DNA of 10,076 nt from Prevotellaceae bacterium (lineage in GTDB: Bacteria > Bacteroidota > Bacteroidia > Bacteroidales > UBA932). The DNA lies in contig JAIRLC010000140.1 in the NCBI GenBank assembly GCA_031259645.1, positions 1 through 10,076 of the forward strand. Reading direction: 5' to 3'. Shown here in pieces: positions 7,829-10,076 of this stretch (positions are counted from its first letter, which is position 1; each line of letters opens with the position of its first letter). Under the pieces are notes generated by a model, which saw only the letters and a program-made list of their open reading frames with translations, was not told where the DNA came from and ran no database searches. A program made the position numbers and the translations under genes.

Positions 7829-8829
7829 TAGATTGCTCACAGTTGAAACCCCTGAACACACGCTTCTATTGCGATGTGCCGGGGCTGGATACGGAAAAAA
7901 TTTACCTGATGAATGGCGCCGGTGTGAAGAAAAATGCCGGTGAACAGGGCGTGCGGCTTGATTTTAACCGTTCGCAAACACCCAAGCCCATACAAATTAT
8001 TAGTGTACGCGAAGGCCATGCCTTTCCGGAAGTGCAGGTAAGGAATACCATTACGGTGGAAGCAGGCATTTCGGCAAGTTTGATATTGTGCGACCACACC
8101 ACGTCGGATTTTGCATTCGTCACCGAAACGTGGAATGAGTTTCATTTGGCTGCCGGCGCGCGGCTTCACATCTTGATGATGCAAAATGAACATAACGGCT
8201 CGGCGCATACTACAAACATCAGCGTGCGGCAGGAAGAGCACAGTTTTTTTTCATGTACGGCCATCACGCTGCACGGCGGAACCATTGAAAACCGCTTCGA
8301 GGTGGCGTTGCAGGGCGAGCAGGCGGAATGTGCGTTAAACGGCTTGTTCTTGTGCGACGGCGCGCAGCGGATAACCAATACGGTGCAGGTACGACACGCC
8401 GTGTCGTCGTGCCGGAGCAAACAGCTCTTCAAGGGCCTGCTCGACGACCGGGCGGTGGGGCATTTCAATGGCCACATCCGGGTGGATAAGGATGCGCAAA
8501 AAACGGAAGCCATGCAGGAAAATCACAATATGCTGCTTACGCCGGCCGCGAAAATGTACATACAACCCCATCTGGAAATTTACGCAGATGATGTGAAGTG
8601 CGCACATGGCGCTACCATTGGCCGGATTGACGAGAATGCGCTGTTTTACCTTCGCTCGCGGGGCATTAGTCTGGCCGAGGCGCAATTCCTGCAGCAATTC
8701 GCCTTTGCGCACGATGTGATTGAACGTATCACCTTACCTTCTTTGCGGGAACGCATTGCCGATTTGGTGGGCAAACGCTTGCGCGGCGAGTTGCACCCCT
8801 GCGCCGGCTGCGCCCGCCACTGCTGCTGA
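7825..8829 (+). CDS. sufD: Fe-S cluster assembly protein SufD (short form)
   Basis: SufD is a scaffold-complex partner of SufB and SufC that assists Fe-S cluster assembly, probably iron entry, in the cytosol. The SufBD beta-helix core is clear: residues of about 150-300 contain RHAVSSCRSKQLFKGLLDD, GHIRVDKDAQKTEAMQ and the strongly conserved DDVKCAHGATIGRID followed by LFYLRSRGIS. The tail carries Cys326, Cys329, Cys333 and Cys334, as I recall from Bacteroidales SufD. The protein has 334 residues, about 100 fewer than commonly seen, because the N-terminal helical region is missing. An in-frame stop at 7768 rules out an upstream start within this frame. The start overlaps the previous stop (ATGA), indicating translational coupling. 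sufB, sufC and sufS are not in the window, which is unusual. The last 158 bp (from about residue 285 through the stop) is duplicated at 9792-9949. Confidence 0.9.
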   Translation: MIDCSQLKPLNTRFYCDVPGLDTEKIYLMNGAGVKKNAGEQGVRLDFNRSQTPKPIQIISVREGHAFPEVQVRNTITVEAGISASLILCDHTTSDFAFVTETWNEFHLAAGARLHILMMQNEHNGSAHTTNISVRQEEHSFFSCTAITLHGGTIENRFEVALQGEQAECALNGLFLCDGAQRITNTVQVRHAVSSCRSKQLFKGLLDDRAVGHFNGHIRVDKDAQKTEAMQENHNMLLTPAAKMYIQPHLEIYADDVKCAHGATIGRIDENALFYLRSRGISLAEAQFLQQFAFAHDVIERITLPSLRERIADLVGKRLRGELHPCAGCARHCC

Positions 8830-8832
8830 GAA
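8675..8832 (+). repeat. 158-bp direct repeat, copy 1 (3' end of sufD)
   Basis: This segment begins at CCGAGGCGCAATTCC inside sufD and ends three bases after its TGA. It matches 9792-9949 at 155 of 158 positions with no gaps. The differences are 8694 G/A, 8727 T/C and 8757 T/C, all in third codon positions and all silent. The sequences diverge abruptly outside both ends, so the repeat has sharp borders. Confidence 0.95.
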
Positions 8833-8835
8833 ATA

Positions 8836-8878
8836 ACACAATTTAATATTCATTCATTTGGATTTTCAAAAATTGTGT
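8836..8878. repeat. 9-bp inverted repeat around the ncRNA promoter spacer
   Basis: ACACAATTT (8836-8844) and AAATTGTGT (8870-8878) are perfect inverted repeats 25 bp apart. The -33 TTTG lies in the loop and the right arm ends just before the -7 box, so it could be an operator. It could also be a weak 3'-end hairpin for sufD, but no T-run follows. Function is inferred. Confidence 0.4.
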
Positions 8879-8887
8879 GTATATTTG
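8857..8887 (+). promoter_or_regulatory. Promoter of the candidate ncRNA
   Basis: TTTG (8857-8860), a 19-nt spacer and TATATTTG (8880-8887) match the Bacteroidota -33/-7 consensus well. Transcription should begin at about 8892-8894. No long plus-strand reading frame follows before the terminator. Confidence 0.7.
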
Positions 8888-8892
8888 CAGTG

Positions 8893-9044
8893 TCATGGAG
8901 CGAAAGGAGCAATCCCTGAAAACTTTGGCAAGACCCGTTAATTCGGAGGGATGTAATCTCCTACGGCAGGTTGCATCTATGGTTTTAGGAACTTATTCCT
9001 AAGGCTGGAGGGGAGCGAGCAGAAATGCTCGCTTCATTATTTTT
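8893..9044 (+). ncRNA. Candidate stand-alone structured RNA of about 150 nt
   Basis: A good promoter upstream and an intrinsic terminator at the 3' end define a transcript of about 150 nt with no gene of convincing length. Internal pairing includes ATCCCT (8912-8917) with AGGGAT (8947-8952), an alternative GGAG/CTCC hairpin (8945-8948 with 8958-8961), and a 7-bp hairpin TTAGGAA-CTTA-TTCCTAA (8985-9002). I could not match it to tmRNA, RNase P RNA, SRP RNA, a common riboswitch or a tRNA. The next gene is convergent, so it is not a leader of that gene. It is only about 20 bp from the 3' end of the nuclease-like gene and shares the same inserted block. A 35-codon frame (8895-9002) lies inside it but has no ribosome binding site and a nearly leaderless start. 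It could instead be a long 3' UTR of sufD. Confidence 0.5.
9013..9044 (+). terminator. Intrinsic terminator of the ncRNA
   Basis: AGCGAGCA (9014-9021), a GAAA tetraloop and TGCTCGCT (9026-9033) form a perfect 8-bp stem followed by a T-rich tail ending in TTTTT (9040-9044). The T-run is only on the plus-strand side, so it acts on rightward transcription and may also terminate read-through from sufD. Confidence 0.85.
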
Positions 9045-9062
9045 GTGGTTCACCTGCAATTT

Positions 9063-9662
9063 TTATCTTGCCCACCATCTCATAAATAAATCAACAAACT
9101 TTCTGTTTTGTACGTGTCCATATCTCACATCGATCGGCTTCCCACCTAACAGTACTTTTATTGCCTTTATGTGTCTGTTCTGAAGATAAAAATCTTTTAT
9201 TGTGTCCGCTACATACCGCGAATCGACATTACCCACTATATTTAAAATTATCCTGTCAGACTGTAAAGAAGCCTTTTCTAACCTGTGATTAAGCGAATTT
9301 TTCCCATATATTGTTTTCAGTTCGTACAAATAGATATTATTGCCTTTTTTTAGAATAAAATCAGGACTTTTGCTGTTGAGTAATTTTGGCAACATAAACA
9401 CATTGTATCCAAGCCTGTTTAACGTCTTTGCCACATTCATATTATCGTTATATTCTACATCTATCTCATTGATATTCCTGAATACTTTTGTGACTGTCTT
9501 TGTTTCATTATCCTTTAGCTTCGTCACAAATCCCTTATGCTGTATTAGTTCACCGAGTATATTTGCCTTGTCCCTGTTGTTCAAATTCCCATGGGTGACA
9601 TCCGTTAGTTTTATAACAATATCTTCTGCGATATTCGACAATTTCCTTAATGTTAACGGCAT
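9063..9662 (-). CDS. PD-(D/E)XK-type nuclease-like protein, orphan CDI/polymorphic-toxin-like domain
   Basis: This 199-residue protein has no signal peptide and no membrane segment. Residues of about 72-145 carry the pattern of a restriction-endonuclease-like core: a helix (MNVAKTLNRLGYNV), then SPDFIL with Pro100-Asp101, a turn, and YLYELKT with Glu114-x-Lys116. These are followed by a helix with LEKASLQSDRIILN (Gln134). This spacing (PD, 12 residues, ExK, then a helix with Gln) resembles CdiA C-terminal tRNase-like domains and domains fused to some phage head proteins. Nucleic-acid cleavage is therefore a reasonable but unproven guess. Residues 1-65 are not recognised. An in-frame TAA 18 bp before the ATG fixes the longest frame. 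Base composition is clearly more AT-rich than in neighbouring genes, which suggests transfer. No immunity gene is next to it. It is convergent with the ncRNA and lies between the two sufD 3'-end copies. Confidence 0.7.
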   Translation of the reverse strand: MPLTLRKLSNIAEDIVIKLTDVTHGNLNNRDKANILGELIQHKGFVTKLKDNETKTVTKVFRNINEIDVEYNDNMNVAKTLNRLGYNVFMLPKLLNSKSPDFILKKGNNIYLYELKTIYGKNSLNHRLEKASLQSDRIILNIVGNVDSRYVADTIKDFYLQNRHIKAIKVLLGGKPIDVRYGHVQNRKFVDLFMRWWAR

Positions 9663-9767
9663 GTTGGTTCTAATTTTTTATTTCCGGAACTGTAGTTTCA
9701 CAATGTGTTTTGCTGCGTTTTTAACTTGTGTGGTGGCTTTAAATAAAAAAATGCTTGAGCGTTGCGG

Positions 9768-9775
9768 CAAAGATA
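9768..9775 (-). promoter_or_regulatory. -7 box for the nuclease-like gene
   Basis: On the minus strand this reads TATCTTTG, matching TAnnTTTG. It lies about 105 nt before the ATG at 9662 and 17 bp inside the right border of the inserted block. A TTG is present upstream but 24 nt away, longer than usual. The resulting leader of about 100 nt is long, and there is a weak purine match before the ATG. Confidence 0.4.
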
Positions 9776-9791
9776 ACAATTAATTATGGAA

Positions 9792-9949
9792 CCGAGGCGC
9801 AATTCCTGCAACAATTCGCCTTTGCGCACGATGTGATTGAACGCATCACCTTACCTTCTTTGCGGGAACGCATCGCCGATTTGGTGGGCAAACGCTTGCG
9901 CGGCGAGTTGCACCCCTGCGCCGGCTGCGCCCGCCACTGCTGCTGAGAA
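9792..9949 (+). pseudogene. Displaced 3' fragment of sufD (direct repeat copy 2)
   Basis: The segment encodes the last 50 residues of SufD, from EAQFLQQF to the Cys-rich tail and stop, identical in protein sequence to the end of the complete gene. The rest of sufD is missing upstream, so it is a remnant and not a functional gene. The frame is open back to a TTG at 9755, but those extra codons belong to unrelated AT-rich DNA and no ribosome binding site is seen. Perfect protein conservation with three silent changes suggests the two copies once were functional ends of two related sufD genes, or that the copy is recent. Confidence 0.9.
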
Positions 9950-10014: not shown

Positions 10015-10076
10015 ATGGCAACGAAAGTAAGGGACATGCCTATCGGCATACAGGATTTTGAGAAGTTGCGCAGAGG
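10015..10076 (+). CDS. Start of an AAA-ATPase_like / PDDEXK_9-type protein (cut by window edge)
   Basis: Only about 20 codons are visible, beginning MATKVRDMPIGIQDFEKLRR. The PIGIQDFEKLR stretch is the characteristic N-terminus of the large Bacteroidota family with an N-terminal AAA-ATPase_like domain and a C-terminal PD-(D/E)XK (DUF1703-type) nuclease domain. These are often present in many copies per genome and their role is unsettled. The gene follows the displaced sufD fragment by 68 bp and has its own consensus promoter. The call rests on a short segment, so only the family is offered. Confidence 0.7.
   Translation, partial: MATKVRDMPIGIQDFEKLRR

Follow-up and report, generated by a model that had tools for sequence, protein, structure and literature searches.

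A structured RNA paired with a CdiA_C-family nuclease in a cassette behind sufD: a candidate toxin and its probable RNA antidote

INTRODUCTION

Why should a complete bacterial sufD gene be followed by a second copy of its own 3′ end, and what is the DNA that separates the two copies? The question is raised by contig C173 of a draft genome (G000) from an uncultured gut-type bacterium. This contig, which ends at 10076, is the window throughout this report, that is, the whole stretch of 10,076 nt that was analysed; the draft amounts to 1.12 Mb in 190 contigs and is 59.7% complete. Between the sufD copies lie a structured RNA gene with its own promoter (at about 8893-9045) and a convergent gene for a PD-(D/E)XK nuclease of the Pfam family CdiA_C. 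We favour, with somewhat better than even confidence, the reading that this is a mobile toxin-RNA antidote cassette of CdiA_C type, existing in phage and chromosomal forms, which was inserted behind sufD with duplication of its target.

RESULTS

A repeated sufD end encloses the cassette

The original prediction described a complete sufD whose last 158 bp recur downstream, and the repeat listing, an alignment and the Pfam match of the gene all agree with it (Table 1). The copies are identical at 155 of 158 positions (98%) and comprise the final 155 bases of sufD, stop codon included, and 3 further bases. Their three differences (at 8694, 8727 and 8757) all fall at third codon positions of sufD and are silent, and the two translations are identical. 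Such a repeat is far beyond chance, because the remaining direct repeats of the window, among the 20 of 28 families listed, are only 16-36 nt long at 71-94% identity. An assembly or binning artefact that joined the sufD copies of two strains is very improbable. The contig does belong to a 60% complete draft of 190 contigs, and the copies do differ by 1.9%, but their longest common exact run is 75 nt, so an assembler working with longer words would not be expected to confuse them, and homologous cassettes are found in unrelated places and genomes.

The two copies enclose 959 bp (8833-9791). Five genomes of the genus were compared (G000 itself and G001 to G004). The sufD of G002 (93% identical) reads TGA-GAAATAACAC and then continues into other DNA, and that of G003 (67%) is likewise followed by other DNA; neither has the cassette, which has no match anywhere in G003. 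Only weak matches to the sufD query were found in G001 (71% complete) and G004 (65% complete). The right flank of the cassette has no match in G002, G003 or G004 and two partial matches in G001. The 158-bp segment itself has no further match in its own 60% complete genome, nor in 69 fetched loci apart from the sufD genes of relatives. Two related species thus lack the cassette behind sufD, as an insertion predicts, and this part of the original prediction, a non-autonomous inserted cassette, is borne out.

Its suggestion that the sufD 3′ end serves as an attachment site fared less well. The cassette is not specific to sufD, because the other copies in the genus sit elsewhere. We call the window unit W, a second unit in the same genome Y (G000:C98), a unit in a third contig X (G001:C55) and a truncated remnant Z (G002:C58). 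Y lies before a gene that by eye resembles blaI; its nuclease is 59% identical to that of W and is full length save for a stop three codons before the end of the W protein. It is flanked by a 43-nt repeat of host DNA (86% identical) that differs from the sufD repeat. The 25-nt core of that repeat, at up to three mismatches, occurs twice in its own genome, on both sides of Y, and once in G002, at a cassette-free site whose neighbour gene, judged by eye, seems to be the same one; this match is only suggestive of an empty site, because the G002 site has a further deletion. Z stands behind a tRNA gene (Met by its anticodon, read by eye).

X lies in a neighbourhood different from that of sufD and has the order RNA 3′ end, nuclease, whole RNA. 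Its 65-nt repeat was tried as a target duplication and rejected, being the 3′ end of the RNA itself. X is best read as the remains of a tandem array, and tandem units in another genome, G286, show a possible origin: two whole RNA-nuclease units (L098 and L105, G286:C37) stand there in tandem 1057 bp apart, the first preceded by a tandem array of ~33-bp period.

A second origin can be imagined for the sufD copies. The cassette may have brought a foreign sufD 3′ end and pushed the native end downstream, where it would now be copy B, as in the mORFs of fungal mitochondria. This competes with target duplication and not with the toxin-RNA pair, and we regard it as unlikely, though worth keeping in view. 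The layout matches that of mORFs, in which, in the accessible part of the account, an inserted gene end and an endonuclease open reading frame (ORF) precede the displaced native end (PMC3630166), and three differences that are all third-position and silent are what two alleles would show. However, copy A differs from the sufD of G002 at 10 of 158 places and copy B at 9, so neither appears to be marked as foreign, and the other cassettes of the genus do not lie between copies of a gene 3′ end, save that of the RNA itself.

The nuclease belongs to the CdiA_C family

The original prediction spoke of an RNA-like unit and a nuclease-like gene in a cassette without a recombinase, and each element holds: the RNA folds better than its shuffles (1 of 200 as good, z -3.8) and has homologues elsewhere, the protein scores 27.9 bits against the CdiA_C cut-off of 26.6, and no recombinase was recognised when the ORF list of 8833-9791 was inspected. 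The two genes lie tail to tail, 18 nt apart. The nuclease is the only cassette ORF of at least 150 aa, so there is no methyltransferase partner, and no immunity-protein gene was recognised in the ORF list for the same interval, in which small ORFs were not searched against families.

CdiA_C is the sole Pfam family that the 199-aa nuclease matches at E<=10; at this sequence level no ToxN-like family is matched. The catalytic D and E-x-K of the PD-(D/E)XK toxin domain of CdiA-CT are present, as D101, E114 and K116, and are invariant across six aligned nuclease proteins. The protein is free-standing, without a trafficking N-terminus. A first AlphaFold2 model (2 sequences) reached a mean predicted local distance difference test score (pLDDT) of only 59.6 and was replaced by a second; the best match of the predicted structure is CdiA-CT (4g6v). 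By sequence, the nuclease has no match in the PDB, one match far below the cut-off in NCBIfam, and only weak matches, of unknown function, in PHROGs. Searches of plasmids gave no match, a search of contigs gave the G001 contig and otherwise just a 21-residue match in Herbaspirillum, and 42 stretches of viral contigs matched by the A1 profile included no relative.

The RNA is a family with covarying helices

Six other RNAs, folded alone, gave z values from -1.9 (phage PJN03, 13 of 200 shuffles as good) to -5.2. Folds and alignments have in common two hairpins, one with a GNRA loop in most members (UUCG in L101 and L102) and one with a UUAA loop, and a long stem ending in UACG or CACG that is followed by a terminator. 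A regular expression for the core motif matches 13 of 17 sequences, with variants in L097, L099, L105 and L106; 11 of those 13 have TATATTTG or TACATTTG ahead of the core. There is no direct repeat of at least 12 nt inside 8893-9045 and no tandem array in 8833-9791. Rfam has no match for the RNA in the window at E<=1; in 11 loci only a tRNA rose above the gathering score, and in nine module loci seven weak matches at E<=5 all stayed below it.

Covariation was assessed on a plain MAFFT alignment of seven RNAs, at 11 pairs in two helices, against 500 shuffles. The pairs are formed in all 77 of 77 cells, against 29-48% of cells in slid controls. Cells with a double change number 25 (9.7 in shuffles), and the covariation score is 0.95 (0.33 in shuffles); none of the 500 shuffles is as high in either measure. 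As far as aligned sequences can establish it, this is an RNA family with covarying helices. Antisense action on the nuclease message or on sufD was considered and rejected, complementarity being no better than in shuffles: the longest exact complementarity to the nuclease message is 8 nt (shuffle mean 8.1), and none of at least 7 nt to the sufD repeat occurs on either strand.

The RNA could instead act in cis, its strong convergent transcription and its terminator restraining read-through or reducing expression of the nuclease with no binding to the protein. The tail-to-tail layout, in which the terminator falls on the nuclease stop codon or close to it, fits. A 70-base stretch of promoter box and 5′ RNA half, however, is 94% identical between W and Y, against 59% for the nucleases, which is more conservation than a terminator needs, as is the covariation of the helices; the complementarity to the nuclease message is that of shuffles, and RNAs without a nuclease exist. 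We think such a role quite improbable.

The RNA and the nuclease are linked in other genomes

Two covariance models were used, R1 from W, X and Y and R2 from the seven RNAs; the R2 searches of order and phylum were run with the stricter filters of Infernal, with at most nine candidates per genome scored among the matches listed. R2 gave 13 matches in 393 genomes of the order. Two of them fall in the window's own genome, and the other 11 are spread over six genomes from three families. A homologous nuclease gene (E 1e-46 to 1e-64 with a profile from six proteins) converges on the RNA end at 8 of these 11 loci. The eight are not independent events, because they are spread over four genomes and two families and two are tandem units in one contig. 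The two genes converge in the window, as they do at all other loci that have the pair (8 of 8), and the nuclease stop codon lies within the T-run of the terminator or adjoins it. Together these loci establish, at the level of gene neighbourhoods, the RNA and the nuclease as a conserved pair, a link that the original prediction did not contain.

No nuclease was found in the fetched flanks of the other three RNAs (L101, L102 and L103). L101 and L102, from two genomes, have flanking sequence in common and may be stand-alone immunity RNAs. L104 is a module between genes that by eye resemble aspS and tadA, both related to tRNA, which may be chance.

Seven nuclease matches were obtained in 199 genomes of the family. 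The RNA sequence lies beside W, X, Y and the remnant Z, and no RNA was found beside the relatives in G557, G549 and G023. R1, applied to as many genomes of the family, matched only in G000, G001, G002 and G544, and the G544 match (L088) was rejected, since only a terminator-like part aligns. The relative in G557 (L076, G557:C31; 37% identical) has one in-frame stop and lies near a gene resembling RNase P RNA by eye; a different short, terminator-ended stretch converges on it and is possibly another RNA partner.

Tight and conserved pairing would also suit an RNA that is a guide or an activating cofactor, with a nuclease that attacks DNA or RNA in defence or in its own homing, and does so only when complexed with the RNA. 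A mobile cassette with a nuclease fits homing, and HEC-02B, a candidate model of PADLOC, gives weak matches to W (E 0.0013) and to X (E 0.00036). Yet the variable arms of the RNA are self-paired and covarying, so no free variable stretch of the guide type is seen; exact complementarity to the sufD repeat stays below 7 nt; and for 3 of 11 RNAs no nearby nuclease was found. We rate this as improbable, if a shade less so than a cis element.

The pair occurs in phages

One of 50,697 phage records contains a relative of the nuclease at E<=0.1, that of vB_RanS_PJN03 (35% identity over 86%). There the nuclease forms the C-terminal part of a head-morphogenesis protein of 578 aa, whose gene is the second after that of the portal, so that the toxin domain is fused to a trafficking N-terminus. 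With R1, the RNA is detected immediately after this gene and in convergent orientation (21.8 bits; E 7.2e-5 in 38 kb); this E-value is modest, and the call leans on position and on later finds. Two viral contigs with 91% identical nuclease domains also carry the RNA. A first RNA pattern, run on viral contigs and on 393 genomes of the order, found nothing outside the window's own genome. Another, derived solely from the RNA, picked out three viral contigs, namely those two and a new one, L095. In L095 the RNA again converges on a nuclease fused to a head protein (minor-head PHROG, E 2.5e-17); the RNA rests there on pattern and alignment, R1 having no match. The sole match of a second RNA pattern, L096, was rejected as chance: it lies inside a phage ORF, and R1 finds no RNA there.

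Table 1. Features of the cassette and its surroundings in the window
Feature	Position	Strand	Basis
sufD, complete, 334 aa	7825..8829	+	Pfam SUFBD_core E 1.9e-66; ORF
Direct repeat of 158 nt, left copy (A), at the end of the complete sufD	8675..8832	+	repeat listing, alignment
Promoter of the RNA, TATATTTG box at 8880-8887, presumably of the Bacteroidota promoter box type	8833..8892	+	its first 57 nt also stand ahead of another RNA in the genus
Structured RNA: GNRA hairpin, UUAA hairpin, long stem capped by UACG, terminator	8893..9045	+	folds, alignments, homologues
199-aa PD-(D/E)XK nuclease, Pfam CdiA_C	9063..9662	-	Pfam, alignment, structure match
5′ leader of the nuclease gene with its likely promoter (TATCTTTG, minus strand, 9768-9775)	9663..9791	-	read from the sequence, inferred
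Right copy (B) of the 158-nt repeat, sufD 3′ fragment without the gene body	9792..9949	+	repeat listing, alignment

Other observations

The ATAACA...TATATTTG promoter box of the cassette RNA is also used by a dispersed RNA of ~275 nt, of which 13 copies were aligned (L054, L007, L060, L063, L057, L056, L059, L048, L055, L058, L062, L042 and L065:810-1084). Its variable, seemingly self-complementary arms are separated by constant blocks, among them GTGTGGGCCTAATTTATTT and GGCTCGCGCTAC; Rfam has no match for it in the loci scanned. The box has 6-14 matches per genome, those in cassettes included, in four of the five genomes of the genus and none in G003. In G002 the DNA just downstream of sufD (L010:1485-1500) carries the very GAAATAACAC found where the cassette of the window begins on its left side, though without a cassette; the ATAACA there also begins the promoter box of the dispersed RNAs, and an RNA gene may once have stood at that site. 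At the far end of the window, a long open frame on the minus strand (3-1328) has coding DNA that repeats every 276 bp (copies at 22, 298 and 574, and at 183 and 459).

DISCUSSION

A proposed toxin with an RNA antidote

The RNA is probably an antidote, because the same RNA-nuclease pair recurs in other bacteria and in phages; a guide or cis-regulatory role is less likely. Toxins of the CdiA_C nuclease family come with an antidote, and orphan immunity genes occur without a toxin. A toxin and its RNA antidote are the simplest account since the RNA is the sole conserved partner seen, sits directly behind the toxin in phages, where immunity genes are reported, also occurs alone like orphan immunity genes, and shares the window cassette with no other recognised gene but the nuclease.

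We infer the following working scheme. The toxin would be a free-standing CdiA_C-type PD-(D/E)XK nuclease, probably a tRNase like the contact-dependent inhibition (CDI) toxins of that fold, and its antidote a convergent, separately transcribed structured RNA. Standing in for the immunity protein that such toxins usually have, this RNA would inhibit the nuclease by binding it, much as a type III antitoxin does. In phages, with the nuclease as toxin tip of a head protein and the RNA directly behind, the RNA would protect the lysogen. The chromosomal copies, that of the window included, would be free-standing toxin-immunity cassettes, and the window cassette would have entered behind sufD with a 158-bp target duplication, as described for restriction-modification genes.

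Several results weigh against this scheme. The RNA is single and convergent, unlike known type III antitoxins, which are repeats lying upstream of the toxin on the same strand. Foldseek gave no match for the nuclease at E<=0.001; of eight nuclease relatives, six match CdiA_C at E<=0.01, all below the Pfam cut-off, and two do not. Two of the five covariation measures stand out less, pairs with a double change (8 against 6.2 in shuffles, 51 of 500 as high) and further pair types (16 against 12.4, 20 of 500), and the structure was named from the same seven RNAs, three of them near-identical phage copies, which tilts the test towards it. R2 matched nothing but the window's own genome among 395 genomes of the phylum, remnant Z matches R1 and not R2, and the 37% identical relative in G557 has no recognisable RNA. 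In the genus, repeats of host DNA flank W and Y, that of X not being counted; outside it, weak flanking repeats occur at two of seven modules tested (L097 and L100) and none at the other five. Beyond the phage RNA lie two small ORFs that could encode a protein antidote.

The broader proposal, to which we give an even chance, is that polymorphic toxins of the CdiA_C class can have RNA immunity: a new family of convergent antitoxin RNAs, in phages and in mobile chromosomal cassettes, whose orphans are stand-alone immunity. If true, polymorphic toxins would be joined to RNA antitoxins, a further origin of RNA-neutralised nucleases would be suggested, and unannotated tails of genes of like kind would become candidates. 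We know of no earlier RNA antidote to a polymorphic toxin; the system would resemble type III but be unrelated to ToxIN.

Comparison with known systems

The type III toxin-antitoxin systems (ToxIN, CptIN and TenpIN) and the prophage-borne AbiF-RCd22 likewise place a gene for a nuclease-type toxin beside a structured RNA, and phage-borne cases are described in the accessible parts of two reports (PMC5086642, PMC12373285). In the cassette, however, the toxin is of the CdiA_C/PD-(D/E)XK kind, neither ToxN-like nor AbiD/F; the RNA consists of one unit without repeated motifs, the tandem in G286 being one of whole RNA-nuclease units; and the genes converge, whereas type III systems form one operon with the antitoxin upstream of the toxin and a terminator between. 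The cassette would work like a type III pair, yet it is outside the class as defined, because its toxin family (by sequence), its unrepeated RNA and its gene order all differ.

MuF and CDI polymorphic toxins of the PD-(D/E)XK class contain the same toxin family, and the phage form described above is likewise the C-terminal part of a head protein. Cassettes of polymorphic toxin and immunity gene are known (PMC5576092, PMC3482391, PMC9086364), in phages with the immunity gene directly behind the toxin (PMC5576092). As far as the accessible text of these papers goes, the immunity factors are proteins, whereas the conserved partner in that slot here is an RNA; the window nuclease also lacks a trafficking domain. 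In the open literature that was searched, no RNA antidote of a polymorphic toxin came to light, and the mention of noncoding RNA in the accessible part of PMC9086364 concerns microRNA. By its nuclease the cassette belongs with the polymorphic-toxin cassettes, with an RNA where a protein is expected.

As to its entry, an integrative element with an attachment site would bring a recombinase, which the inspected ORF list lacks, and the sufD case is a concrete example of a cassette entering a genome without a visible one. The mORFs of fungal mitochondria likewise set an endonuclease ORF between two copies of a host gene 3′ end and leave the gene intact; they bring a replacement gene end, but their enzymes are LAGLIDADG or GIY-YIG and the inserted end is clearly foreign (PMC3630166), whereas neither sufD copy here is clearly so. 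Restriction-modification genes are a further parallel: they too form a small nuclease cassette with no recombinase seen, and their insertion is reported to duplicate the target over long stretches of variable length, roughly 100 bp (PMC3874152, PMC3031569). Direct repeats of host DNA, 158 nt at W and 43 nt (86%) at Y, are found here too, with an RNA as partner of the nuclease where those systems have a methyltransferase.

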